Part shown: piece after piece, positions 29,091-50,190 of the stretch
Numbering within the stretch: position 1 is the stretch's first letter
Layout of the letters: each line of letters starts with the position of its first letter
NCBI GenBank assembly: GCA_963681505.1
Contig: OY811971.1
Coordinates: forward strand, 14,929,338-14,993,337
From: Eunapius fragilis
Taxonomy: Eukaryota > Porifera > Demospongiae > Spongillida > Spongillidae
Direction: 5' to 3'
DNA length: 64,000 nucleotides
Notes under the pieces: model-generated
Database searches by the model: none
What the model saw: only the letters and a program-made list of their open reading frames with translations
Told to the model about the DNA's origin: nothing
Translations under genes and position numbers: made by a program

Positions 29091-32000
29091 ATGGCTGATT
29101 TGGACTCTGAGCCCCTGCTGGACGATGATTCCTTAGGGGGGAATCCCCCAGAGGTGGACTTCAGTAGGATGGTGTTCTTTTATGGAAAGGTTTGTACGTA
29201 CATGTACACGTATGAAAGTGTGAGATGACATGTTTTTAGTGTGGGATGTTTAGTACATGTCATATTAAATTTCACTATTGTACAAACATGTTAGGGCCTG
29301 GAGGACATTTTAGGCAGGGTGAGAACACACACACACAGTCTGTCTGATGTCCATAATTCCAGTACACACCACAGTAGTATAACAGTGCTGTTGGGTTGTT
29401 TAAAGCTTCATTTGCTCATGTAGTGAGCAGCCAACTCTGGAGGTGTGCCGTCATCTTTATCAAAGGGTGACCCCTGGTTGTTAGTAGTATTGCAGGCAAC
29501 AAAAGAAGTCGCCAGCTTCCTCCTTACTTGTACATCTTGTGGGGTAGCAGTGAACTTACGCATGCATGTGATACACCTGACACCTGACCTGATTAACCTC
29601 ATGTTGCCATAACCACCACCCCCTCCCCTCACTCAGGAAGAACAGAAGGTGTTGGCCATCTCCTCCCTGACGGGGGGCAACCTCAGGCCCAAGGGTTCCA
29701 AGTCAGCTGCCAACGCACTATGGTCCAGACGTACCAGCGAGGGCAAGGAACCTCCTGTTAACATCACGACCCACATGGATGACCGTACACCCCTCACCTC
29801 CACCCCTGAAAAGCAAGCTGAGCCTGTTTGGAAGAGTTCCCTCCTCCCCGCTACTCCACAGGTGGTCTACTACGAAACCCTCACGTCGACGGCCGAAGAT
29901 TCCACCCACAATCCCTCCTCCTCCTGCAGTGACTCTGAGCATGGCTCTCCCCTGAGGGTTGTCATCCCCTCAGGGCCCCTGGTGGGGGAGGGGCAGCACC
30001 TGGACGCAGATCTACTGTATGCCACGCCCATTAATTACCCGAGACGCTCATGTGACTCTGAAGACTCTCGCTACGACAAGCTCCTCGGAGTGTTGGGCGC
30101 CGGGAGTAGGGGTAGCCACGCCTCCCTGTTACCCACGACGTCGGATGACGACCACACCAGCTCTAGCGGCTGCTCCGATCTTGCGGGGGGCAACCAGCAA
30201 CAGGGCCCCCTCGAACCGGAGGAGAGCCCCCTCCACCATCACCACCTGACTGTGCCCCCCTCCGAGAGCCCCCTCCACCACTCACACGTGTACCAGCACA
30301 AGCCCATCAACACGTACGAGGAGGTGGTGCCCCTCCTCCACAACGACGGCGTGGCATCTGGGGGCGGGGCCTTTTTCATGCGCCCGAGGTCTCACAGTCC
30401 TGATGATGACAACTACATTGTACGACCACCTCCCAGGAAGTCGTGGGGACTCCCCATCCTCATCCTCCACTTCTCCCCCTCTCCCTCCCTCCTACAGTGT
30501 CACCATGGACAGGAACATCTCCCAGCCTGTCCTCAGGTCCAAGGTCCCCCTCAGTCCCCAGACCAGCACTGGGAGGCCGTCTAATGTACCGGAGTCTTTG
30601 GATGAAGGGGAAGAGGAGGGTGGTGGTGGTGGTGGTGGTGAAGGATCAGCTAGCAGCTTGGACGTATCTTTAGGGGGCGTGGTCCTGAGAAGCAAGCCCA
30701 AGCCGTCAGACTCCACCCCTCCATCTACCACCGCCCCGACAGAGGAAGAGCGGGATCCATTTGAGGAGCTCCTCACACGGCCAACTGCAGCCTCCAGACT
30801 GAGGTGGTCACAGGAGCTCAACCCTCTCTATGACTACTTCAAGGGGGCAAAGTTCACTCAGAAGATGGCTTCCCTGGACTATGTGTTGTACGAGGACTCA
30901 ACACAGGAAGACCACACCTCCTCTTCCTCCACTGTCACCTCCCCCCTCAACAAAGATGACGAGAAGGCGTCTGCCATTTTGGAGGCGAGGTCACACGAGG
31001 AGGAGGGGTCTGGTGTGGATGACCTGCAGGACGAAGGAGGGGGAATGACGTCCCCTCTCATTACAAGCCAGGTCATGGGTGGAGCGTTGTTGTTAGAGGA
31101 AGCCTCGCTGTCTGGCACTTTGCGCCCAAGGCGTCCCCACATGTACGAAGATGTCGCCCTCACCCAAGGGAAGGGGGATCGTCTCTCCGGCTATGTGGGT
31201 GGAGTCAGGCACCAGTCTGACGTTGTCTCCTCCTCCTCTTCCTCTAATAATCTGGGGGCGGAGCATGTGGCCCTGCGTCACGTGGATTCCAATCCGGCCG
31301 GGGGCGTGGTCGGTGACCACGCCCACATCACCAATCCCCACATAGGGAAGAGGCAGATCATGCTGAACCAGAGGAGAAGCCGTACCATTGGCAGCCTGGA
31401 CGACATAGCCACCACCAAGAGGAAGCAGAAACCTCTGAAGGCTGCCGATAATATGAAGGTGAGGGGAGGATGGCATTGGAGGTGGGGGTGGTTATGGAGA
31501 CACCTTGTGCTGTAGCTATCTGCTCCTTTTTTACTGTAGTGACAAATTGTTTTACAATTAGTAGAGAGTGGGTCCACATCATCAGCCTTTACATTAGGAA
31601 GTATGTTAGTAGGAAGAGGAGGGGAGGAAGAGGAGGAAGAGGAGGGGAGGGAGAGGAGGAAGAGGAGGGGAGGGAGAGGAGGAAGAGGACGGGAGGGGGA
31701 GGAGGAAGAGGAGGGGAGCAAGAGGAGGGGAGGGAATGCCCAGCTTCCCGCGGGGCTGCAACAACCTATGAACTCTGGTGGTTGTGGGTAACCCCGTATG
31801 TCATCACCTTGTCACCTGAGGATGAATTCAACAAAGTAAGCAACCATACATTATCACACACACACCCTAACACACACACACACACTCACTCCCAGTGCTG
31901 GCTCAGTGTAGTTCAAGGGAACACTCCGTGCTCTGTGGATCAGGCAGTGAAGCTGGCGGCCATACAGTACCAGGTCTACATCCAACACCGCACCGCCATG

Positions 32001-33370
32001 AACTCCACTGTGGCCTTCTGCAAGTGGGTGTGGCCTTGGTCTGAATGCACCCCGGTATTACCCTGTCACTCTTCCTATGTGGACACACACTCCACACACA
32101 CACACACTTACATACCCACCCTCCCCCCTTTGCACAAAACAGACCATCTGACTTTTTCCCTGTTGAGTACGCTGGTCTCCGCGGGATAGACCAGAAGATG
32201 TTCAAGGAACTGGAGACAATGAACCTGAAGGCTGAGAAGGACATCTACCAGACATACAAGAACTGCTACCTCTCCCTGCCCACACATGACACCGTCTTTT
32301 TTCCTGCAAGGGTAGGTGGGGGGTGGGAGGTGGAGGTATGGTGGAGGAGAGCCATGACACAGCTATGGTAGAGTGATCACCTCACAGCTAGGCATGGTTA
32401 CGTTTTGTGACATGTGCTGACATGTTTTGTATGCATCCCTTTCCCCCACTACACACACTCACACCTCTAGGAGCCAAGGAGGAAGCTCCTTCACAGCACC
32501 AAGCTGAAGCCCATCTTGATCGGGGTGAACAGCAAAGGTGTGATGAGGGTGGACCACAGGACCAAGGAGGTGCTGGACACGTGGGACTATCAGGTCCTCA
32601 AGAACTGGGCATACTCCAAGAGAACCTTTGTACTGGTAAGGGGCAACTGTGGGGGTGTGGTCGTGTGGGTGTTCTGGTTAGGGGACTGTGGGGGTGAGGT
32701 TGTGTAGGTACATCGTATGGTGTGGATGTACTGGTTAGGGGACTGGGTGAGGTTGTTGGATGAACTTGCTGGTTAGGGGGAGGATAGTGTGGTTAGTTGT
32801 GTACTAGTTAGCTGGACTGGGTGAGGTATGGGTGTAATGTTTGGGGGACTGTACATGTAGATACATGTACATTGTGTGGTTGTGTGGTAGGGGACTGTGG
32901 GTGTGGTTGTGTGTGACAGTACAAATGAAGTAGTGTAATTCAAGTGTTCTGACAGTGGGTGTGGTCTTGTGATGGAGATCAACAGAAGTGGCATATTTTG
33001 TGATGTTGCTTAATTAGAGTAACATGTATATTAACTATGTCTGGTCATTACACTATGTACTGTATGCACACGTCTGGTTCTAACCCACCATCCCTCCTTC
33101 CCCCCCCCCCCCCCCCCCCCCCCTCACACACACATGTAGGCCTTCACCGCCAAGAATTATCCAATGGAGTCCATACAGGCAAAGTGGATCAGTGCTCTAA
33201 TGGATTTCCACGTTGATGCCATCATGGATTCAGCTGTAAGTGCAAACTGCTGAAGGGTCCATTTCTAAGCTTTCATTATTTGGATATTTCCTTCTGGCCA
33301 TCACCCTGACATACATCATTCTCTCTCTCAACAGGACAACCTAGGAAAGCTTATCACCGACAATCAATGA
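29091..33370 (+). CDS. Talin-head-like FERM domain protein with long disordered region (model incomplete)
   Basis: Proposed parts: 29091-29189 (ATG start MADLDSEPLLDDDS, exon opening at 29077), 29637-30439, 30498-31458, an unresolved exon ending at 31835, 31896-32023, 32143-32311, 32471-32635, 33140-33235, 33335-33370 (TGA). The 5' half is a Ser/Pro/acidic disordered region with an NPLY motif at 30820-30831. The 3' half encodes FERM lobe F2 (DQAVKLAAIQYQVYIQ, FFPVEYAGL, YKNCYL) and the PTB-like F3 (LIGVNSKGVMRVDHRTKEV, LDTWDYQVLKNWAYSKRT), where VMRVD..TKEV is a talin hallmark. Talin heads bind NPxY integrin tails and membranes. No rod domain follows; the protein stops 11 codons after F3. The 30440-30497 segment is either a 58-base intron (GTCGTG...CTACAG) or a one-base frame change. 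I could not find a phase-compatible junction between 31458 and the 31835 exon. Confidence 0.65.
29190..29636 (+). other. Intron within the FERM gene
   Basis: GTTTGT donor to CCCTCACTCAG acceptor, phase 0. No other feature seen. Confidence 0.55.
29637..31458 (+). CDS. FERM gene, large Ser/Pro/His-rich disordered exons
   Basis: Frame one (29637-30439): EEQKVLAISSLTGGNLRPKG, then low-complexity sequence with SSSCSDSEHGS, HHHHLT and VYQHKPINTYEEVVPLL. Frame two (30498-31458): VTMDRNISQPVLRSKVPLS, GGGGGGEGSASSLDV, WSQELNPLYDYFKGAKFTQ, SRTIGSLDDIATTKRK. Many SP and TP sites and a HMYEDVAL tyrosine motif suggest a phosphorylated adaptor region. The partial copy at 21946-22375 keeps the second frame (DGDSPSSSS) across the suspected junction, which is mild support for coding through it and so for an indel rather than an intron. 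Confidence 0.6.
31609..31735. repeat. Purine-strand copy of the 23-base minisatellite inside the FERM gene
   Basis: GGAGGGAGAGGAGGAAGAGG-type units, the exact reverse complement of the 22.6-24.9 kb array. One frame stays open from 31470 through this array (RRGGRGGRGGEGEEEEEG) into the exon ending at 31835, so it could be translated, or it could have destroyed an acceptor site. Confidence 0.85.
31734..31803 (+). repeat. 70-base segment with an inverted copy at 33630-33699 (left arm)
   Basis: GAATGCCCAGCTTCCCGCGG through GTAACCCCGTATGTCA. In the FERM frame it encodes ECPASRGAATTYELWWLW, VTPYV. The other arm is identical in reverse complement and lies downstream of the stop codon. Confidence 0.9.
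31896..32023 (+). CDS. FERM gene, F2 exon a
   Basis: Phase 0 to phase 2. CWLSVVQGNTPCSVDQAVK, LAAIQYQVYIQHRTAMNST, VAFCK. Upstream intron is only 60 bases. Near-identical duplicate at 26720-26805. Confidence 0.8.
32143..32311 (+). CDS. FERM gene, F2 exon b
   Basis: Enters in phase 2 (AA|A, Lys). PSDFFPVEYAGLRGIDQKM, FKELETMNLKAEKDIYQ, TYKNCYLSLPTHDTVFFPA, R. FFPVEY and YKNC occupy the positions of talin FLPKEY and HKNC. Donor GTAGGT, phase 0. Confidence 0.8.
32471..32635 (+). CDS. FERM gene, F3 (PTB-like) exon
   Basis: 55 codons, phase 0. EPRRKLLHSTKLKPILIGV, NSKGVMRVDHRTKEVLD, TWDYQVLKNWAYSKRTFVL. This is the strongest talin-type match in the locus: the VMRVD and TKEV strand/turn followed by the W..... 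LKNWA motif. Confidence 0.85.
33140..33370 (+). CDS. FERM gene, last two coding exons
   Basis: 33140-33235 (AFTAKNYPMESIQAKWIS, ALMDFHVDAIMDSA) is the F3 C-terminal strand and helix. 33335-33370 adds DNLGKLITDNQ and TGA. The first acceptor is preceded by a 35-base C run and CACACACATGTAG. Confidence 0.75.
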
Positions 33371-33799: not shown

Positions 33800-34206
33800 A
33801 TGTCACCTCCGCTGGTTGTTAGCAGTTACTACGCTCTACTACTTTTAACGAGTAGCCTCCCGCGCCCCGCGGTCCATGCACGCAAATGTGTTTTCAGCCA
33901 CTAATGTGGCTTGGACGACATTTTGCCTCAGATATCGCTCAGTCTCTTCCGAATGTAAGAAAAGCTGGATACACATAAGTACGCTAGAAGTACCAGTTCA
34001 TTAAGTCCACGGCACCCGCCTCACTCACGTTATGGAGTTGTTCTTTACTCATAATATTTACGCACGCCACACCCAATCAGGATACAACGAGTAAATCTTA
34101 ATTAAATCAATGATGGACGTTTGAGATGAAATATGTCTCTCCTAAGCGCTCTACAATCTCACATGGCTGTCTGTGTGAATCTGTGGATGACCAATCAATC
34201 CTCGCA
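33800..34206. other. Intergenic, no feature seen
   Basis: Single-copy DNA; one short open frame at 34133 without recognisable content. Confidence 0.5.
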
Positions 34207-34330
34207 CTGTGCAAAAAACCTAGTATACGCTAGCGTATATTTTTGCGTATATTTCGCGTATACCATCAATATACCAAGGGTAGTGTATATTTCGACTATC
34301 CACCTGGTATATTTCAAGAATCCCTAGGTG
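34207..34330. mobile_element. Solo end of the CACTGTGCAAA repeat family
   Basis: CACTGTGCAAAAAACCTAGT, then TATACGCTAGCGTATAT and TTTGCGTATATTTCGCGTAT. Matches the reverse complement of 47030-47083, so the two are opposite ends of one family. No matching partner was found close by in the right orientation. Confidence 0.55.
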
Positions 34331-34693
34331 ACAATTATTCATTGTGCGAATATCACGTATACGCACACCGCAATGAATTATGCAACGCATTCAAATCTAA
34401 ATAACTTACATGTATAACTTTGATATGAACAATTTGAACCGCAGTATGCCTGCTATGTGAATTCGAACGTAGAGCATTATGGACGTTTACCACTTGAACT
34501 ATAAGCGTCGGTACGTATGTAAGATATTAATGATGCATGGCATGGCTTAACAGGTGGGTAAGATAAGTGAGGAGGACAGGAATGGGGGTGTGTATGCCAG
34601 GGTTATGTGTTATCGCATGCGTCACTGTTGACCAGTGGGTACTTTAGGCAACACTAGCTAAGTTAACGAATGCGTAATTGTATGCTGTATACC

Positions 34694-36480
34694 ACACTGT
34701 GCAAATGATTTGTTATACGATAGCGTATTCTATAGCGTATATTCGAATATACCCCTTAAATATACGCACCTGCGTATAGAACCATATACACGGGTGCGTA
34801 TATTGAAATATAACCGATCACGTGACATTCATGGTCGCTTAGCAAGCCTTTGAATTCACTTTGTGGCTATCTTGTCGGTCACCGTATACTAAGCGCTTCA
34901 TATTCCGTGTATTTGTCCTACTCCCACCCCCACCCCTCGTTCCCGATTCAATTTAGAATCCAATTGAAATTTTAATAATTTGCACAAGTACAACAGAACA
35001 ACAAACAGTCCGAGGTGACATCCAGCATAACTTCGTTCCAAGTCGCCTGTACAGAACAACTGTAAATTCTTATCGTCAAAATTATTTAACTCACCGCATA
35101 TGTATCCTTTGCAAACTGTCGTGTTGATACAAGACAGATTGAAATGAAAACGAAATTGGCAACGCTTACCTTTTAGTCACGTTTCATCTAGCAAATTGTG
35201 AACAGTTGGGAAAGGTCAAGGAGGTTAAATGCTTACCGGACCTGTCAGCAACAAATCACGATGAAACAGTCTGATAATACCCGACTTGTCAAAGTGTCCG
35301 GATTCGCCCAACACGTAGCCAGTTACACGAACAACTTTAGACGAATGGACGAGTATAGCAGCACTTCGCAAAACAAGAAATGACATACCCTTTCCTACCG
35401 TGCGTTGTGCCGGTTTCGGTTGCTCAACAGGAACACTTGGGACATGCCAAACTGGTGCAAATAGTCAGGGGTGATTAGCAGCACTATTTCTCGTCAACTT
35501 AGTCTTACCATTCAAACAATACGCTGATCTCAAGAGTCCATTTTCAGAGTCTTCGCATTAAAAGCAATCAACACGCGGCAATGGAATAGCCCGCCTAAAA
35601 TTTACAAGTCACGTGCGGTAAGCAAATCACATTCCTAATTGGAGCAGCCCTATACCATCGCTCATGTCAGAAAGAGCACCAAAGATCGTCACCAACACAA
35701 TGAATCATAGCATGTCTGTTACCATGCAAGGAAGCGATGGCACCTCGATGAGATTTCTGGAGAACCCGAAATCATATTTACTAGCCTAAGGATCTGACAT
35801 TGTGGAAACTAATTACTTCTAAAGTTTATTTGTATAAATGCAATATCCGCTGTATACATAATTTAGTATACAGCTAACATGCGATCATGTACCAGTACAA
35901 TACATATATACTCACGCTCGCAAGTGGCTGTGGTAAAAAATTTGATAGGGGATAGCTTCGAGTAACCAGTACGTATACATACATGGAGTGCTCCATTCGT
36001 CGACCGATAGTGGCTACAGCTTGACTTTTGTTCGCTAAAAGGATGCTAAAATGACCATGTCAGCATCTGTAAACAAGTATGATTATAGGACAAGGTACGG
36101 TTTTAACCGGACCACTTATTCCCCGAGGGAAGAAAAAACAGTTGTGACCCCCTGACGTATGCATTAACCGGCCCTCCCATACCGGCCATATATAGTTATA
36201 ACCGGAGCACTTACTATAGTGTGGCTACACTAGCCTGTAAGATGAGAAGAGCATTTTAGCTGTGGCCAATGAATTTGCAAGTGTAATAAGCGCACAACGG
36301 GTTAATATTGCTTGGTCATAACATTTTAATGGCTGCCTATGTAAACTGTGACGCAAGTGCGGTTGTGTATTCGTGAAATATACTACAGTACGTCGTATAT
36401 TTCAAATGTACTGATCCGGCGTATATTTCAAGTATAGTCCAAAGTATACAGTATCGTATAACAAACTATTTGCACAGTGT
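34694..36480. mobile_element. 1.8-kb non-autonomous TIR element, ends ACACTGTGCAAAT
   Basis: Left end ACACTGTGCAAATGATTTGT, TATACGATA; right end is its reverse complement with one mismatch (ACACTGTGCAAATAGTTTGT, TATACGATA). Interior subterminal CGTATAT/GTATATTTC motifs occur at both ends. There is no transposase. The CACTG start recalls CACTA/EnSpm elements, but no clear 3-base target duplication is visible. Confidence 0.6.
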
Positions 36481-36579
36481 AGGATGTAGTGTGTGCGAAG
36501 GGAATTTGTAAGTTATATCGATCTGTATAGTTAGACTTCGATTTTGCGATCGAATTCCACACTGAATCAGTGGCGTTCA

Positions 36580-36613
36580 GGATATCAGGTCAGGCCTGAT
36601 ATAAGAAAAATTG

Positions 36614-36644
<31 letters not shown>

Positions 36645-36690
36645 TTGCTGTCTGCTTCTGGTCCGATAAGAAAAGTGGGGCCTTCGTTTG
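36580..36690 (+). repeat. Member of the G-run repeat family
   Basis: A ~29-base G run followed by GCTGTCTGCTTCTGGTCCGA and TAAGAAAAGTGGGGCC; the same phrase occurs with longer context at 51270-51365 (inverted) and 60400-60510. Confidence 0.6.
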
Positions 36691-37030
36691 GCACACAGCA
36701 AATACACTGTATGTTATATCGTCAATATAATCATCGTGTTGGGTTCCGTTTATACTGCATGCGCAGGGTCAAAATCAATTTTTGATTTCATAGATGCTTA
36801 AAGCACACCTGCGTATAAGATACTGTTCTGTCAATCATGCGATCATTTTACAAGTGATTTTAAATCAATTATGAAATCAATCGCGGTCTTTGACATGTGC
36901 TGACTGTCGCATGCAAGGCGGTGTAGGTTATTAACGTGTAAGGATTTGAAAAATTCCCATAAGTATATACACACAAGAATTTGAATATGCACGGTTGGTA
37001 GTACGATATAAAAATACTCACTGGTGTATC

Positions 37031-37432
37031 GAAAACGTGCTTATATAAACGGTGACGCTTGCGGATTACAATATACTACTCCGGCGTGCATGTATTCACA
37101 AAAATATACGGTAATGATAAAACTAACGTTTGCACTGTGGTGCCTATAAAAACAGTGACGTATTCGACACTTGCGGATTCTTGAATATACGCAGGCTTAT
37201 ACTACTCAGGTGTATATTTTGGGTATTCTTCAAATATACGCAAAAATATACAGTATCGTAAAAGCAGTGCGGTGCCTATATAAACAGTGACGTAATTAAC
37301 ACATGCATGCGTATTCTTGAATATACGCCGTCGTATACTTAAAATATACTACACACGCGTATATTTTGAGTATTCTTCAATATACGCAAAAATATACAGT
37401 ATCGTATAACTAACTTTTTGCACTGTGCCAGT
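37031..37432 (+). repeat. Three tandem ~135-base units of the CGTATAT family
   Basis: Units begin near 37031, 37136 and 37269 with GTGCCTATATAAACAGTGAC-like sequence and close with AAAAATATACAGTATCGTA. The last ends TTTTTGCACTGTG, the element terminus. Confidence 0.7.
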
Positions 37433-37744
37433 GGGTCAATGTGTCTACAGGATGGTAGGAAGCATGGGAGGCCATGTTTGACCGGGAGCAATCTTTGTAA
37501 CCAGGTAGCCCAGCAGGGTGGTGAATTGGCCGCCCATGCAACCATATAATTGCAGCTCATCATTTATATCAGTCATTGTTTTAAAGTGTGTGAGGGAGCA
37601 GGAGAATGGTCAAGATTCCCAGTGAGAAGGACCTAGAGTTGCAGAGGTTAGCTGATATGGTTCCTGACAAATAGGCCAACAGTATGATCACCACTGAAAT
37701 AGCAGTGAAATAGCAGTGACACCTTGTGGTCTTGGCACTTGCAC

Positions 37745-37985
37745 TGTGTAAAAAGGGTTGTTATACTCGCCTGTATAACATTGTTATACAAGTAGTTATA
37801 CAGCATTTGTTATACACATTGCATATAATTGTGTATAACTGTGTATAATGGTAGTATGTACTAATTAAAAAACCGCAGTGTAAAAAGGGTTGTTATACTC
37901 GCCTGTATATCCGCCTGTATATCATTGTTATACAAGTAACTGTTATGCACATTGTGTATAACTGTATACATGTGATGCTAATTTT
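37745..37985 (+). repeat. Direct pair, CAGTGTAAAAAGGGTTGTTA units
   Basis: Two copies (about 37745 and 37877) of AGTGTAAAAAGGGTTGTTAT, ACTCGCCTGTATA followed by TTGTTATACAAGTA. Termini again resemble CACTGTG, a related sub-family. Confidence 0.65.
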
Positions 37986-38464
37986 ATACCGCATCATAGC
38001 GAGGGCGTAATTCGTTGTTAATTGAGCTATTGGCCATTAATAATGGGCCATTACATTTAAATTTAAAAAGAAAGATGGCTATACGTGTTCCGAAGAAATC
38101 GCGGAAGGAAAGCGTATATCTGGTTGGTCGGAGTTCTGGCTAAAATGTATGTATACACATACTAGCTTAGTTTATGAATTACGCACATTTGAATTTGATT
38201 CGTCTACCGGTACTTGTATACAGTTTCAGTGATGATATGTGTGAAGCCAAAAAGCCCCAAGTTGTGTAGACGTCGCGTTGGATGGAGTGACCACTGAAAG
38301 GTAAGCCAATGTAGTTTTGTAATATTTCTGGGTTGTACCATGTATATAAATAATTTATGGTTGTCATACATACTATTATAATCAATTTTTAAAAGTCACC
38401 TTTTGAAATGGGCTGATTGTAACTGTGGCAACCAGCTCAGTATACACGCCCAGGGTCAGGCTAC
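37986..38464. other. No gene seen
   Basis: AT-rich DNA without recognisable features. Confidence 0.5.
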
Positions 38465-38660
38465 ATGCTGCATATGTGTGTGATTGTGTGTGTGTTGTGT
38501 GTGTGTGTGTGTGTGTATACATGTGTATGTAATAGTAACATGTATGATATGTGTGTGCATTTGGTACATGGTGTGCGTGTGTGTTTGTTGTGTGCATGTA
38601 TGCGCATACATGTGTATGTGAGCATGTATATGTGTACACGTTCAACGTGTGTATATTCAC
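38465..38660. repeat. GT-rich tract
   Basis: GTGTGT microsatellite (38478-38518) decaying into ATGTGTATGT-like sequence. Confidence 0.85.
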
Positions 38661-38827
38661 TGATTCAATGTTCCTGTTACATTGGTCATGATGTAATCTG
38701 TGCATCAAGCATGCAGGATCGGTGCTCTGGGTACATTGCATGTATATGTGTGTTCTGAGTTATTGGTGAGACAAGCGTATGCCGTTTGACAGTCTGATGC
38801 ACATGAACAATGGCCTCCTTGATAATA

Positions 38828-39675
38828 ATGTGCTCACCTCATGCTGTCATGTGCTCACCTCATGCTGTCATCATGTGCTCTCCTCATGCTGTCATCATGT
38901 GCTCACCTCATGCTGTCATGTGCTCACCTCATGCTGTCGTCATGTGCTCACCTCATGCTGTCATGTGCTCACCTCATGCTGACATCATGTGCTCACCTCA
39001 TGCTGACATGTGCTACCCTCATGTTGTCATCATGTGCTAACCTCATGCTGTCATGTGCTCACCTCATACTGTCATCATGTGCTAACCTCATGCTGACATC
39101 ATGTGCTAACCTCATGCTGTCATGTGCTCACCTCATGCTGACATCATGTGCTAACCTCATGCTGTCATGTGCTCACCTCATACTGTCATCATGTGCTAAC
39201 CTCATGCTGTCATCATGTGCTCACCTCATGCTGTCATGTGCTCACCTCATGCTGACATCATGTGCTAACCTCATGCTGTCATCATGTGCTAACCTCATGC
39301 TGTCATCATGTGCTCACCTCATGCTGTCATGTGCTCACCTCATGCTGTCATCATGTGCTAACCTCATGCTGTCATCATGTGCTCACCTCATGTTGTTATC
39401 ATGTGCTCACCTCATGCTGACATGTGCTACCCTCATGTTGTCATCATGTGCTAACCTCATGCTGTCATGTGCTCACCTCATACTGTCATCATGTGCTAAC
39501 CTCATGCTGTCATCATGTGCTCACCTCATGCTGTCATGTGCTCACCTCATGCTGTCGTCATGTGCTCACCTCATGTTGTTATCATGTGCTAACCTCATGC
39601 TGTCATGTGCTCACCTCATACTGTCATGTGTTCACCTCATACTGTCATGTGTTCACCTCATACTGTCATCAGGTG
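38828..39675 (+). repeat. 21/24-base minisatellite, CACCTCATGCTGTCATCATG + TGCT
   Basis: About 38 units alternating between 21 bases (one CAT) and 24 bases (CATCAT). Both lengths are multiples of three, which keeps all plus frames open (the 279-codon frame reads LMLSSCAH repeats). No splice or start context supports coding. Confidence 0.95.
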
Positions 39676-41471
39676 CCTGATGAAGATGGTTTGGTATTTA
39701 ATGCTAGCATTCCTACTTACCCTAATCACCTAATAATGTCTACTAAACCACATCACATGATCTTAACACTCACCTTGCATGCACACACATGCGCACACAC
39801 ATACACACATACACACATACACACACATACACATACTTGAAGAAGTTGCCAAGGGGTAATACACTCACACAGTTGGTGGGATGGCTGCTTTGCCACACCC
39901 CATGATGAGGCTACCATGATGCATGTAGCCACAGTCTTGATAACTGGGGCACTCCTGCCAAAGGGGAGGGTTGGTGGACTAACTGTGGGCTGTTAGCACT
40001 GAAGTTTGATTGCTTTGGTGTCACTCTGAAGTTTTTATAGTTCACTGTGTGATGTTTAGTCAGTGCCAAATAGACCCAGGCAGCAATATGTTTTGGTGCC
40101 TAGCTGTGTAGGGCTTTCATTGTTCTGTGAACATTCTTACATGTAGTGGTTGTATTGAAGGACCTTTTGGGAGGATATTGGCATGTGTGCAGCTACATAC
40201 ATAGGGTATGCATGTGTGTGTATCTGTCTGCATGTCACTAGGAGAAGAAAGCACAATTCTGTCAAGATGTGTGTATGCATGTGTCTGCATTTTATACCAG
40301 TATGTGCATGTGCATCCACATATGTTTACAATTGTCTGTACGTGCTTATATCTGTGTGAGTAGGTGAAGATGCTTAGAATGTGGTTTGAAAGAGGCGAAT
40401 GTGATTTTGGAGCATTCAGAATGAAAATGTTTAGCTAGAGGCTTGGCGCTTGGAGGTGGCACCAGTATTACTGCCATTTAGTAGCTGAGTGCACTAAGAA
40501 TCTATCCTTCTCAATAGTCTTCATCCAAATTGTATGTATGGTATGTTTGCATGGTGTGATATCTTTAAATGATATATTTTCACTCTGATAGGATCAAGCC
40601 TTACATCAATTGAATGAATCAAATAAAGTGGCAGTCCCTGGTGTGCATCTAATAGAGTCATGTTCGTAGGTGTGCATCAAATAGAATCATGTTAGTGGCC
40701 AGACCAGGTATTGTAATACAGTCTTGTGTACATCAAATTTCTAAGTTGCTTTTGAAACCCCACTCTGAGCAGAACAAATACAGTGTGTACGAGGCTTCTT
40801 GTCAAATGAATGTAACGCGCATGCGTAGACTCTTCAAAGCCGCATGCATATATGGCGTCATCGTCGGGAAATCTAATACTGCAACTATAACCGTACGTTC
40901 CTATCATCCAGAAGAAATATCTTAGGTGGGTCTTCAAGTAAATTGAGGGACTAGTGGCTAATTCCCAAGTCTCTCCTCTAACAGGTCCCCGAGAAACGAT
41001 GAAGTCATGTCGTCACAGCAGAACCTACATGTATATCGATACTAGTACGATGATGACGAAGAAGACCGCGCCAAACCCTAGGTCCTAGGCAGCATGGCGA
41101 TGCTGTTTGCACGGTCCGTTACACTACTGCAGGAGGTTGCGAAACTACAGATCCAAAACTGTCTCAAAGCGATGCTGTAAGACCAACTCGAGGGAAAAGG
41201 ACATCACTTTCTGTACAGGTACAGTAACGTTATATCGGCTTTTTTTTTTCCTACTGAGGAGAATCCAGCTGGAAGTCTCGAAGCGTAAGCAGTGATCATC
41301 ACCTTTTTTTTCTCGATCAAATTTAGAGACGTCATAAAAACTAGCAAAGGCAGAGCGGGTAAGAGATTGCGTTTTCATTCACACTTGCTGTTTATCAGTG
41401 TCTGTTGTCAGAATTGACAAATTATACGAAGAGCGGAGATAGAGAAGTAGCGGATTGCTTTGGAGTATAAG
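39676..41471. other. Intergenic; CA/ACAT microsatellite at 39780-39836
   Basis: Apart from the microsatellite I see no exon I can support. A start codon at 41094 with an open stretch to a GTAAGA donor at 41177 is possible but unconnected. Confidence 0.45.
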
Positions 41472-41501
41472 CAGAGATAATATATAGAGGGATTGGAAAC
41501 G
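41472..41501 (+). repeat. P element, left terminal inverted repeat
   Basis: 30 bases starting CAGAGATAATATATAGAGGG, preceded by the GTATAAG duplication. Confidence 0.9.
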
Positions 41502-42065
41502 AGTCACGTGAGCTATACATTTCTACGAGAGCCTCAGCGGGCAATGCTATCTGGCGCTAATCGCACCTTTAAGGTGTTATAAGGGGCGGACGAAGGGGGA
41601 GAAAAAGAAGCTTTTTTGCTTGGTACTCAAGTATAGTGACCAGGATCAGGTAGGTTTATGTTAAGTAAAGTGGGATTGATAGCGGGGTATTGTTTTAAGC
41701 GAAAAAAAACCGCTTTTTTGGCAACATTATGTCACTTATGATGCTTTAAAGTGCTTTTATTGGAGTCCACATTTTTGTGGGGTAGCCGCTTTTCAACTAT
41801 TGGTGCGTGCGATTCGTAAAGCGCAGCTTAAAAGGTTAGTAACTGAATGTATTGTGGCGTAGGCTAGGTTTTGTCGCAAAAGCGCTTCTAGAATGGGATG
41901 TATCGATACGTGGATACCTCGGGTTTGTGGGGTAGCCTAGCCGTTGTTTCAAATCTAAAAATGTCCTGAAATGCTTCAATATGTAGAAAACTGTTTCCTG
42001 TGTGGCGTGGATGTACATTTATGCGATGTCTGCATATAAGTGTGTCTATAAATATTTTTACAGAG

Positions 42066-45000
42066 ATGGGAGGAAGAAAATTTCGCATGGAGCGCCATCG
42101 TAAGAATGAAGAGCGAAAGATAGCACGGCCATCGATGATCGTATCTGTTCCCCGAAATGCTGTGACGTTGTCAGTTGGTTTGATGACCATTCAGAGCTCA
42201 GCACCCGTCCTCCATCCTGTGGTTCAATGCCAGTCTACTGATGAAACTTCTACAATGCTTGTTTCGTTTCCATTATCTGCTTTTATGCAGAGAAAAATCA
42301 CATCTGTTGATGTTCTACTGTCAAGGCTTGAGAAGATATCTCTCCCTTCTATGTGGGTCATTCTTGGTGGTCCACCCCTTGTTGTCTGCAGAATGCACTC
42401 TAGCCAGTTACAGACTACTGTGTTGATGTCAGTGAAAGTTACGGCTGAGTTACAGTGGTCGGCAACTGTCTTGGATAAGACAGTTACATCTGAGATGTTA
42501 CCTGTACTTGGTGAAGTTCCTTCTACAATCTCAGCTGTTACAGAGCTCTGCAGGCTTGTTGATATCTTGGATGGTGTCAAACTATGCATTGGGAATCCAG
42601 ACGACAACATTGTACAGCTGTACCACAGCAGCACATATACGCTACACAGTTATTCAGGTATGCCATGAAGTTTTGTATTTTGCTGTATTCATGCATGTAT
42701 ATTAGAACTACTGGTTATTTCATAGGTCACCAAGCTGGATACATTGACACTGCCCTGCTGAACCACCGTGAAACTGTTCGTCACAAAAATTGCAAACTTA
42801 TAATTCATCCCAACTCTCGTGCCGTACGCTGTTCTGCTTGTTCAACCTATCGATCTACCCTGCTTACTCAGAAGTGGAAGAGAGCAAGTACGTCTGTGGA
42901 TAATGAAAGAACAAACTACCGGTTTGTGCTTTTTTGGTGACTAGGTAAATGAATGACTCTTTATATTTGTACCATATAGATTTATCCAACTACCAGATCT
43001 GGTTGCTCGTCTTGGTAACATTCGAACATCATACCGATCTCTTCTGAAGCAACTTGAACGATTGAGAAGCAGAATTCACCAAGACACAGAAGTGAAAGGT
43101 GTCTTCTTGGATGAAGAATGCAATGCCTACATCAAGGATATTATCTGTTTGCCAGAAACTGCTAAGCATTTGGAAAGCTTGCCTGAAGATTCATTTGAGC
43201 ACATCTTTTGGCAGCAGCAGATTGAGGCAGCATCACAACATAGCTCTCGGCACATGAGATGGCATCCATTGATGATTCGTTTTTGCTTATCACTTAGGCA
43301 TAAGTTAGTGATTTACTTTTGATATTAATTGTTAATTCACTTAAACTTTAAATTTTCTTCAGGTCTGGTGGGGCATATGAGTTGTTACGAGAATCTGGCT
43401 GCATCAAACTACCATCTCAAAGGACTCTTCGAGACTACACTCACTATGTTAAGTCATGTGAGGGCTTTTCTGCAGATGTGGATGTGATGCTTAGGAATGC
43501 AGTGAATGTTGAGAGTTGCCCTGAGAGAGAAAAGTATGTAGCCATCTTAATTGATGAAATGCACGTGCGAGAGGATCTGGTGTTTGATCGTTGGAATGGA
43601 AATTTGGTGGGCTTTGCAAACTTGGGAGAAACCAATAACCATCTGATGCAGCTAGAGTCTGCCCTCACCGATGGCAATACTGCTCCATCCCAAGCTAAGA
43701 CCATGGTCGTATTTATGATACGAGGTCTATTCACCAAGTTGCAGTTTCCATATGCACAGTTCCCTTGTTGTGCCTTGAAGGGTCATCAGCTGTATGACCC
43801 TTTCTGGGAAGCAGTGGGAAGAGTAGAAAACTGTGGTTTAAAGGTATATTTAAAATCATTGTCTGTATATTATTAATATTGATGTCTCATCAGGTTCTTG
43901 CTGTAACTATGGATGGTAGCTCTGCAAACAGAAAACTCATCAAATTGCATAATACTTCATCTGATGTAACCTATCGAATAGCAAATCCGTACACAGCGGA
44001 GAAACGATTCTTGTTCTTTATATCAGATCCCCCCCACTTGATAAAAACCACCCGAAACTGCTGGCACAATCGAATGTTGTGGGTATGTTTTTTGTGCCAC
44101 AGCATTACTGTTATGTATTATTCAGTATTTTTAATTCTATCACAACAGAACAATGGCAAGTACATCTGTTGGGATCAACTCAAACAATTTTATGATATGG
44201 ATACTGCTAAAGCAGTTGGAATGCGAATCCTTCCAAAACTGAAGTTTGAGCACATTTATCTTACAGCATTTTCCAAGATGAGGGTTGTTTTGGCCGCCCA
44301 GGTAAAAAAAGCTCCATAGCTAATTTTAGTTCGTGTATGGATGATCATGATGTACACCTATAGGTATTGAGTGAATCTGTGTCTAAAGCTCTTGTACTTT
44401 TTTGTGGAGATGAATGCAATGAGACATCACAGTTTGTAGAAATGATGGACAAGTTTTTTGACGCACTAAATGTGCATAACTACAGCCATGGGTCTCGAGC
44501 CTTGAAGCCATTTCAGTTGCCCTATACCTCAAGAGAAGATCCTCGCCTAAAGGTATGATTCAGCTCAAGCAATGCAATTTATATTTTATTTTGAAATATC
44601 ACACAGTGGTTAGTTGAATGTTTTTTGAAGTATTTGGAAGATTGGGAGAGATCTGTTATGGGGCGATCTGGCTTTAGTCTGGCAGAGAAGTCTAACATGC
44701 TGTTGAGCAAGGAAACATTATATGGTTTGAAGATGACAAGTAAGAAGTATTTATTCACCCTCATGAGGAGCATTTGATTATGAAAGTAAAAACTTTATTT
44801 TCATCTATCAGGTAGATCTTTTGTAGAGTTGGTCCAGTTCCTGTTTACTCTTCCTGATGTCAGGTCATTTCTAAGTCAAAGAATATGCCAAGACCCATTG
44901 GAGAGATTCTTTGGGGTTCAACGTCAAAGAGGAGGAGTCAATGATAACCCAAATGTTGCTGAATTTACTAAGAACACACAGGCAATAAGGGTCATGAACT

Positions 45001-46174
45001 CAATGTGTCATACAAGACAACTTAGGGGAAATTGTCGTGGAAGTGAAGGCGAGCAGCCAGCAATGTGTACTACTCCATTAGAAAAGCGTCGTCGTACTTC
45101 TTCAGACACAACAGTTATTCCATGTCAACCCATAACAGATGCTGTTGTATCAGGTATGTTAGTTCCTTTCTTAGATTATATTATTTGTGAATCATAAGCA
45201 TTTCTCTCCGCACAGGCAGCTGTGTTTCAGATGGTTATTTGCTTAAATCAGTCAAAGCTCTTTTGGATGATAAAGCTTTTCTGATGCCATCTGCATCAGC
45301 AACATCTGCTTTAAAAATGGCTCAAGATCTTATGAAATGGATGCCATCCAATGATGTAAAAGTAAAAGCATTCCACAACGATATTGTAGAGCTGCTTCGT
45401 GGTTGTATTAAACCGATTAAACTGTTAACCAGCAGTAAGAAGACATGTACAAGACGAAGGATAAAAATGTGGAGCAGCTACCATGTAGTCCGAACTTCGC
45501 AAGATTATGTTGACAAGTGGATGGCATTCCTACGTGACAGTTCCACACTTCCTGCAACACAATTATGCCCTGTCTTTTTTCAGTATGTTGGGAACCAAAT
45601 CTTTCGTCAGCTTGTCAGGGATGAGTGTGGCTTCAGTTTAGAGTGCAGCAATCTTGGAACCACTGAGCAGCTAACATATGAAGAGCTCAATGCACTGCGA
45701 TACACAGCAGGATATGTTCCAAGGGCTCTTCAAAAGAAACTATTCAAGCATCCTAGGCAAAAGGATCTACAATTGTATTTAAATGAACTTGTTAGTGATG
45801 GATCAGAAGCTGTGACTGATTCCTCTGATGATTGGTTAACTGCAGTGAATCGAGGTGGACTGATAGTAGTGAACAACATGGCTTTTGAATTGTTCCACAC
45901 AATGGAGTGTGAGTTTCGCCACAATATCCAACCAACAGGGATAGTTGATAATGCGGTGGAGTTAATTTTAAACAATGAAGATGTTCTATTTTTATGGAGC
46001 ATCATCAGTAACTCCTGGGACCAAGATTGCAGCTCTGAACTGCTTGAGAGAATGGTGAAGCTGTGGATAACACTGCGTGGGTTTTCATTGTGTGGTGCTT
46101 TAATGGAGCAGTACAAAGTTACCAACAAGATAACCACACAAAAATCAAAAGCCATGAGAAAAGAACTACTCTAG
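42066..46174 (+). CDS. P-element / THAP9-like transposase, 10 exons, 1185 residues
   Basis: Exons 42066-42657, 42726-42921, 42980-43303, 43363-43843, 43894-44082, 44149-44301, 44364-44552, 44607-44739, 44812-45153, 45216-46174; introns are 50-72 bases, all GT-AG, with matching phases, total 3558 bases. Start ATG at 42066 follows an acceptor (TTTTTACAG), so a 5' UTR intron is likely (donor GTAGGT at about 41650). P-family motifs run in order: RTLRDYTHYV, ILIDEMHVREDLVFD, GFANLGE, FPYAQFPC, DPFWEAVGRVENCGLK, VLAVTMDGSSANRK, FFISDPPHLIKTTRNC, EHIYLTAFSKMRVVLAAQ, VLSESVSKAL, KFFDALNVHN, CQDPLERFFGVQRQRGG, DNPNVAEF. Probable catalytic acids are Asp435, Asp576 and Glu783. It would excise and insert the element in the nucleus using GTP as cofactor, if it behaves like Drosophila P. 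No C2CH THAP finger is visible at the N-terminus; a Cys cluster (NCKL, RCSAC) in exon 2 may bind DNA instead. Confidence 0.9.
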
Positions 46175-46258
46175 ACAGTTCAGACACTTTTGAATTGAAT
46201 TGTGTGTTGTAAATATGTAAACATTTAGATCATTACTACTCTATTTGATTTGTGAAGA

Positions 46259-46264
46259 AATAAA
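46259..46264 (+). terminator. Poly(A) signal of the P-element transposase
   Basis: AATAAA 85 bases after the TAG stop and inside the element. Confidence 0.55.
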
Positions 46265-46406
46265 AAGAAGGGGGAAAAAATGTACTGAGAGTGGATTCGA
46301 ACCATGTAGCATAGTTATCATCTCTGCTGCTATAGAATAGTAGCTGCACCTGAAGCCTTAAAAGTCACTGGTAGCATTGTCCGTGTTGATTAGTGTTGAT
46401 TGGCTC

Positions 46407-46436
46407 CGTTTCCAATCCCTCTATATATTATCTCTG
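46407..46436 (-). repeat. P element, right terminal inverted repeat
   Basis: Perfect reverse complement of the left repeat, followed by GTATAAG. Confidence 0.9.
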
Positions 46437-46930
46437 GTATAAGGTAATGGCTTCGTTTGTTTTAACCCTGTATATTCCCTGCAGCTAGACAAGGAAACTT
46501 CAGATTCAGCTGAGCTTGTCAAGCAATCCCGCCGTCAGTGTAGGCCTCTGTTTGCATTTGTATCGTATGGATGCTCTATTTTGCTGTAGCTATATGGACT
46601 ATGGTGACAGTACAGGAAAGCAGTTTGAAGCCTACGCTCAACTACTGCCGCGCGTTTCGTTAGAAGAGGTTGCAATGGATTTCTGAGCAACTCGTGGCAA
46701 CGGCGGGTTGGAGGGCCACTACTGGAGTATCTCCTTCCTGGATGGCTGGAGAGCTTGAACGTTGTCTATTGATTGTATTGCTTTATTTAATATTGATAAT
46801 AATTTTAATACTAATCAAGCCAGTATACAACGAACATAATCGGGTGGCGTACCCAATACAGTATACGGTCAACGTAGGTACAGTGTAGTATCCGGAGACA
46901 TTAATTAGAGAATCCTCCATAGCGCACGTG
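46437..46930. other. Flank of the P element, no gene seen
   Basis: 46485-46560 begins after a CCCTGCAG acceptor-like site, but I cannot link it to an exon on the other side of the element. Confidence 0.4.
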
Positions 46931-47085
46931 ATACATTTGAGGATAATATACGCAGTGCGAAATTGGTTCTATACGCAAAATATACCAGTGGGATATTTCG
47001 CGTATACGCACGCGTATATTCGTGCGTATACTCGAAATATACGCAAAATATACAATAGCGTATATCCTATTTTTTGCACAGTGTC
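46931..47085. mobile_element. Right end of a CACTGTGCAAA-family element
   Basis: Dense CGTATA motifs (TTTCGCGTATACGCACGCGT) ending TATCCTATTTTTTGCACAGT. Reverse complement matches the solo end at 34207. Confidence 0.55.
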
Positions 47086-48966: not shown

Positions 48967-49189
48967 GGGCAATTTCATGATAGGGGCGGCGATAGTATGC
49001 ACGATTTGCGAAGGGGTTTAACAAAGAACTATTTTTGTGAATATTCACGTGAATAAAACGCTCATACGTTACTAAACAAGGGCGTGAATCAAAGCTGCAT
49101 GTTTTTTATGCAAGCATGTACATGTAAATGTACACGCTTCGACAAAGAATTAAGAGATTTTCCAGGCTGACATAGCATGCGTATAGAAA

Positions 49190-50190
49190 CTTCACTTGAA
49201 TTAAGAATAATTCATCACAGAGTATATCATATGAGCCATAGCATGCGTATGAAACATTCACGTGAAGAAAAATTCTTCACAGAGTATATTATATGAGCCA
49301 TAGCATGCGTATGAAATATTCACGTGAAGAAAAATTCTTCACAGAGTGTATAGAGCCATAGCATGCGTATGAAACATTCACGTGAAGAAATTTTCTTCAC
49401 AGAGTATATTATATGAGCCATAGCATGCCTATGAAACATTCACGTGAAGAAAAATTCTTCACAGAGTGTATAGAGCCATAGCATGCGTATGAAACATTCA
49501 CGTGAAGAAAGATTCTTCACAGAGTATATTATATGAGCCATAGCATGCGTATGAAACATTCACGTGAAGAAAAATTCTTCACAGAGTGTATAGAGCCATA
49601 GCATGCGTATGAAACATTCACGTGAAGAAAGATTCTTCACAGAGTATATTATATGAGCAATAGCATGCGTATGAAACATTCACGTGAAGAAAAATTCTTC
49701 ACAGAGTGTATAGAGCCATAGCATGCGTATGAAACATTCACGTGAAGAAAGATTCTTCACAGAGTATATTATATGAGCCATAGCATGCGTATGAAACATT
49801 CACGTGAAGAAAAATTCTTCACAGAGTGTATAGAGCCATAGCATGCGTATGAAACATTCACGTGAAGAAAGATTCTTCACAGAGTATGTTATATGAGCCA
49901 TAGCATGCGTATGAAACATTCACGTGAAGAAAAATTCTTCACAGAGTGTATAGAGCCATAGCATGCGTATGAAACATTCACGTGAAGAAAAATTCTTCAC
50001 AGAGTATATTATATGAGCAATAGCATGCGTATGAAACATTCACGTGAAGAAAAATTCTTCACAGAGTATATTATATGAGCCATAGCATGCGTATGAAACA
50101 TTCACGTGAAGAAAAATTCTTCACAGAGTGTATAGAGCCATAGCATGCGTATGAAACATTCACGTGAAGAAAAATTCTTCACAGAGTATA
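49190..50190 (+). repeat. Dimeric ~120-base satellite array
   Basis: About 17 monomers of about 60 bases, each with GCCATAGCATGCGTATGAAA, CATTCACGTGAAGAAA, TTCTTCACAGAG. Monomers alternate between a GTGTATAGAGCC and a GTATATTATATGAGCC spacer, giving an exact 120-base higher-order period from about 49380 on. CACGTG and GCATGC palindromes occur in every monomer. Confidence 0.95.

Follow-up and report, generated by a model that had tools for sequence, protein, structure and literature searches.

A recently moved P-superfamily DNA transposon in the freshwater sponge Eunapius fragilis, with relatives in two apparent gene layouts

The analysed stretch of DNA, referred to as the window, comprised 64,000 nucleotides of the genome of the freshwater sponge Eunapius fragilis (C1:14929338-14993337; genome of 218.94 Mb in 24 contigs). 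A P-type element of 4965 bp was located at positions 41472-46436 of the window. An original prediction, made from the letters of the window, had placed an intact and possibly active P element of an early-branching animal here, which fits the sponge host. Its perfect 30-base ends and 7-base duplication were both confirmed by re-reading. The terminal inverted repeats at 41472-41501 (forward strand) and 46407-46436 (reverse strand) matched perfectly over exactly 30 bp and showed no clear similarity further in. They were flanked by the target-site duplication GTATAAG at 41465-41471 and 46437-46443, read directly from the flanks. With up to three mismatches, the 30-bp end occurred 343 + 311 times in the whole genome (654 matches), compared with 0 occurrences of the reversed control, so that a chance sequence is excluded. 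A subterminal TCACGTG at 41504-41510 is a possible binding site. It was also present at one end of the relatives L019, L069, L022, L024, L035 and L021, and L020 held a counterpart with one base changed. Subterminal repeats resembling the 11-mers of the fly element were not found in the element. Its left 595 bases contained one 14-bp direct repeat and one 10-bp palindrome.

A single predicted gene was present on the forward strand. The rebuilt coding model reproduced exactly the ten exons, consistent phases and 3558 uninterrupted coding nucleotides, including the stop, of the earlier reading, and encoded 1185 amino acids. The nine introns were all of the GT-AG type and measured 50-72 bp. Exon 1 (42066-42657) started with MGGRK and held a CxGNPD motif with C174 at 42585-42587. 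The M-G-x-R-K start was common to the window element, L069, L022, L073, L035 and L023. Exon 2 (42726-42921) encoded C220, C233 and C236 (42791-42841), a candidate zinc-binding region, and exon 3 (42980-43303) a weakly indicated, possible coiled coil and helix-turn-helix region. The N-terminal part of the RNase H domain, PF21787, was encoded by exon 4 (43363-43843), with catalytic D435 at 43553-43555. Exon 5 (43894-44082) contributed catalytic D538 (43912-43914) and the D576-x2-H579 signature. The GTP-binding insertion domain, PF21788, was encoded by exon 6 (44149-44301) and exon 7 (44364-44552), the latter including D678. Exon 8 (44607-44739) was assigned by the gene model, and exon 9 (44812-45153) comprised the C-terminal part of the RNase H domain, PF21789, with D780 and catalytic E783 (44901-44903). 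Intron 9 (45154-45215) separated this catalytic core from a C-terminal domain at residues 866/867. Exon 10 (45216-46174) encoded that domain, residues 867-1185, and the stop; it was homologous to an opposite-strand frame of the convergent relatives described below. An AATAAA motif at 46259-46264 of the forward strand is a possible polyadenylation signal.

The prediction of a P-type transposase was borne out by the protein searches. In the spliced protein, Pfam searches detected PF21787 (1.1e-19), PF21788 (3.8e-18) and PF21789 (1.6e-7), all above the curated cut-offs, and in a search of solved structures the Drosophila P transposase was the only match at E up to 10 (3.4e-12). The fly residues D230, D303, D339, H342, D444, D528 and E531 corresponded to D435, D538, D576, H579, D678, D780 and E783 of the window protein and were identical throughout. 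The element thus combined the DDE triad D435, D538 and E783 and the signature D576-P-P-H579 with an RNase H transposase interrupted by a GTP-binding insertion, terminal inverted repeats and a target duplication. PMC8230255 lists a [C/D](2)H signature for this superfamily. The C-terminal domain and the N-terminal region had weak and unconvincing hits only in Pfam and PDB. A weak profile search of the N-terminal region ranked coiled-coil proteins first, and residues 332-444 scored a weak -2.2 bits against residues 133-239 of Drosophila P as a separate segment. AlphaFold prediction of exon 10 alone reached a mean predicted local distance difference test (pLDDT) score of 38 and was not used. Coding constraint was observed in comparison with L019, with proportions of nonsynonymous (pN) and synonymous (pS) differences of 0.15 and 0.85 in exon 4 and 0.34 and 0.82 in the C-terminal domain; synonymous sites were saturated.

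The N-terminal region occupies the position where P elements carry a THAP domain. The original prediction had seen no recognisable THAP finger, and the profile search likewise listed no Pfam THAP hit in the window protein at E up to 10, although the HMMER filters remove most matches above about 0.1. Relatives were located with PF21787, and 57 matches were merged into 51 P-type loci. Among 150 THAP hits listed genome-wide, none lay within 7 kb of these loci and a single one lay within 10 kb, at 7.5 kb; 150 of 271 candidates were scored, so that the THAP counts are a lower bound. These at least 150 THAP-domain matches all passed the cut-off, and many contained stops. The missing finger seems to be common to the local relatives, with other cysteines conserved instead. 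Among 24 local sequences, which included the window and some near-copies, C174 was conserved in 20 of 20, C220 and C233 each in 22 of 22 and C236 in 20 of 22 sequences with a letter there; the alignment was built from search pieces and a few columns were shifted. In L071, a near-copy of L069 outside the 24, tyrosine replaced the last conserved cysteine. The conserved cysteines may bind zinc or DNA.

Recent movement of the window element was strongly supported, as had been proposed. The joined flanks (150 + 150 bp) gave an unbroken match at all 40 scored loci out of 1441 candidates, 26 of them with the top score and 14 no more than 5 bits below it, and with a printed identity of 100%. The element was therefore inserted in one copy of an abundant repeat, whose other copies represent empty sites. 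In the same query, no unbroken match was obtained for the flanks of four other insertions, the scored places being filled by the repeat of the window. This host repeat extended over about 34205-34694, 37428-41471 and 46444-47084 of the window and was present in at least 40 copies, with 98-99% identity over the right piece and 89-99% over the others; it was itself split by another repeat at about 34695-37427. Target duplications were read at 31 pairs of terminal inverted repeats, comprising the window, L069, a set of 13 and a set of 16 chosen from the first 100 places listed. In 28 pairs the 7-bp duplication was perfect and different each time, and none measured 8 bp. The search for further copies also revealed a second full-length copy on C21 (L017, C21:4625375-4632689), which had 16 substitutions and 5 gap letters over about 4970 bp (99.6% identity over 4302 bp) and its own 7-bp duplication. 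Deletion derivatives with about 99% identity, L027, L028 and L029, occupied three further sites. In L035 (584-2169), a more diverged deletion derivative, the N-terminal part and the final portion of the C-terminal domain were joined in a 241-codon frame, an arrangement that recalls the KP repressor of flies.

Taken together, the window element is very probably a P-superfamily DNA transposon of the cut-and-paste type, autonomous in appearance, with one gene of about ten exons for a 1185-residue transposase. Several observations weigh against this interpretation. Three of the 31 pairs had imperfect duplications: one had three mismatches, and L023 (read by eye) and another pair had one each. In the C21 copy, a 2345-bp insertion interrupted exon 1 and exon 5 carried a one-base indel. 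No other intact copy was detected among the 40 of 625 candidates scored in the primary assembly, leaving the window copy as the only unbroken full-length member of its subfamily found in this sample. In the gene model, the donor of intron 2 was weak (GTTTGT) and intron 5 (66 nt) may be optional. Since intron 5 contains no stop and its retention keeps the frame, a nine-exon model is also possible; removal is favoured because the spliced-protein alignment to Drosophila P crosses the junction without a gap. The splice search returned ten exons at the lowest intron cost and nine at the other costs tried; a 52-exon model, obtained with the intron cost set too low, was discarded. The 2345-bp insertion in L017 had CAGTGTTGCCGCGAT ends and an 8-bp duplication TGATCGTA, and we take it to be hAT-like.

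The broken state of the C21 copy and the apparent youth of the insertion are also what would be expected if the window element were functionally dead, had been moved by transposase from another source, such as another haplotype or a kin family, and owed its open frame to youth alone. Cross-mobilisation is possible because the 30-bp end also occurs in other families. The open ten-exon frame and the presence of the conserved catalytic and signature residues argue against this reading, which we consider unlikely. A separate superfamily outside P was suggested by the absence of THAP from the protein and the near absence of listed THAP hits around the 51 loci, by duplications of 7 bp rather than 8 bp and by a large extra C-terminal domain lacking convincing Pfam or PDB relatives. 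However, all three TNP-like Pfam domains were found, together with the DDE set and the D-x2-H signature that PMC8230255 gives for the superfamily, making such a placement very improbable. Domestication as a THAP9-like host gene with relic transposon ends, to which the single unbroken copy found might point, was rejected as barely credible on the basis of empty sites in near-identical repeats, the second insertion at 99.6% identity elsewhere, the perfect ends and duplication and the 654 end matches; both other copies and empty sites exist.

For the preferred interpretation as an autonomous-looking P-superfamily transposon, the following mechanism may be proposed. The single gene would be expressed and spliced from about ten exons into the transposase. 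Its THAP-less N-terminal region with four conserved cysteines would probably recognise the ends, followed by the possible coiled coil and helix-turn-helix. The RNase H domain, split by the GTP-binding insertion and holding the complete DDE set, would precede the C-terminal domain of 319 residues. With transposase bound to both of its ends, the element would be cut out and inserted at a target with a 7-bp stagger, creating the 7-bp duplications; in the window this target was in a copy of the abundant repeat. It is plausible that this transposase, or one closely related to it, also mobilises the many short derivatives with the same ends. The window element may be active at present.

The C-terminal domain was searched for separately with window exon 10, giving at least 126 matches (125 of 277 candidates scored). 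A match was found within 4 kb at 32 of the 51 core loci and always downstream. It was on the same strand as the core at 17 loci, in line as in the window, and on the opposite strand at 15, at distances of 1216-1584 bases and in one case 2225. These numbers count loci, not independent families, as the 17 included the window and the C21 copy and the 15 included near-identical copies on C4 and C16. The other 19 loci had no C-terminal match within 4 kb among those listed. Genome-wide, 87 listed C-terminal matches had no transposase core within 5 kb. Two layouts thus appear to exist in one genome: a single gene, and two facing genes. The convergent elements L067, L068, L070 and L072 shared the transposase core and the N-terminal cysteine motifs with the window element but differed in that the C-terminal domain was on the opposite strand, tail to tail with the core.

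A complete and separate opposite-strand frame was held by L072 (C4:10955271-10960124, delimited by matches). It had 328 codons, the fourth being ATG, 92 bases from the element's right end. In L067, 350 codons were open and 33% identical to window residues 873-1184; the first ATG was codon 78, which leaves the start of this frame unclear. The L068 frame consisted of two matching pieces, possibly separated by an intron, and that of L070 had one internal stop. L072 resembled the window element in its related ends (CATAGATTAAAG...GAAACG) and 7-bp duplications. In its C16 copy, both frames were present with about 100% identity; in the C5 copy, the middle was altered and part of the opposite-strand frame was missing; the C10 copy was a short derivative. 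All four copies of this type (C4, C16, C5 and C10) showed 7-bp duplications, each different when read by eye. Since the C4 and C16 copies carry both genes between different duplications, both genes moved as one unit. Between L067 and L070, the ratio of nonsynonymous to synonymous substitution rates (dN/dS) was about 0.15 and 0.22 in two core segments and 0.18 in the opposite-strand frame, calculated for the part before the L070 stop.

A tree of 28 core sequences contained 9 in-line, 8 convergent and 11 unscored rows and required only one change of layout. The in-line rows formed one group nested in the convergent rows, with support of 93/96 under midpoint rooting (not a starred branch) and 91/96 with Drosophila P as outgroup. 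Convergent scores of L045 and L047 were based on weak hits (1e-3 and 4e-6), and both were absent from the layout count of the 51 loci. Five unscored rows were given a layout by that count and all fell on the expected side, L053 and L060 in line and L040, L041 and L062 convergent. A convergent layout that came first, with a later inversion or fusion, is a suggestion only, because the outgroup branch was very long (3.03). On balance, we lean slightly towards a THAP-less sponge branch of the P superfamily in which convergent two-gene elements encode the C-terminal domain as a protein of its own, acting in trans and expressed from a promoter near the right end, and in which an inversion or fusion brought this protein in line with the transposase in one-gene elements such as that of the window. 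In that case, the C-terminal region of a P-type transposase originated as an independent partner subunit, or is able to act as one, and the joint is marked by the last intron in the window gene.

Outside the Eunapius fragilis genome, no relatives were found in the viral contigs searched. The prokaryote contigs yielded one, L113 (JACERO010000093.1), which shares the CxG.PD and CxxC motifs. It is probably eukaryotic contamination, as a contig with a P-type transposase was filed under a Nitrosopumilus metagenome-assembled genome. The contig end cuts its N terminus, so that its THAP status cannot be judged, and the C-terminal domain was not found in the remaining 1.4 kb. The two layouts are therefore known from one species. 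Neither sponge P elements nor two-gene P elements were found in the open-access literature, which was covered in part and with Repbase outside the search, and their absence is unproven. The in-line and convergent layouts of the C-terminal domain among related loci of one genome are the new observation here. The presence in a sponge of a recently mobile P-superfamily element whose frame is intact implies that flies and fish are not the only hosts of such elements. With both layouts in one genome, a natural split-gene test of C-terminal domain function is available, and the abundance of empty sites and near-identical copies makes the family a practical candidate for a sponge transposition assay. 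Elsewhere in the window, a weak FERM central-domain match just under the cut-off (8.5e-5) was located at 31452-32186, and long tandem-repeat arrays were present at 38825-39676 and 49171-50190.

In comparison with known systems, the window element is a member of the P superfamily by its transposase. It falls outside the canonical P elements and THAP9, as both an N-terminal THAP domain and an 8-bp duplication were lacking. P-type transposases outside flies are also represented by THAP9 and the zebrafish THAP9 element, which is presumably Pdre2. Maize MuDR resembles the convergent sponge elements in its pair of convergent genes, each of which begins close to an end of the element; its transposase belongs to a different superfamily and the second genes are not known to be related. 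The P element of Drosophila melanogaster (6p5a, 6pe2) shares with the window element the RNase H domain split by a GTP-binding insertion, the DDE residues with D-x2-H and D444, and internally deleted derivatives. In contrast, the window element lacks THAP, has a 7-bp instead of an 8-bp duplication, measures 4965 bp instead of 2.9 kb and contains nine introns instead of three. In both, the last intron (IVS3 in the fly) precedes the C-terminal part of the protein, with the exact position of IVS3 before this part of the fly transposase being our assumption. The 319-residue C-terminal domain may be a further difference. According to PMC7776569, removal of IVS3 in germ cells yields the full transposase, the fly ends measure 31 bp compared with 30 bp here, and four of six domains are visible in the fly transposase structure, the C-terminal part not being among them. 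The statement that P elements are classically known from flies proved too narrow, as PMC7776569 also describes ends, duplications and internally deleted copies for the zebrafish THAP9 element, features that the window family shares. It differs from the sponge element in its THAP domain, 13-bp ends and 8-bp duplications, and human THAP9 likewise carries THAP but has no ends (PMC7776569).

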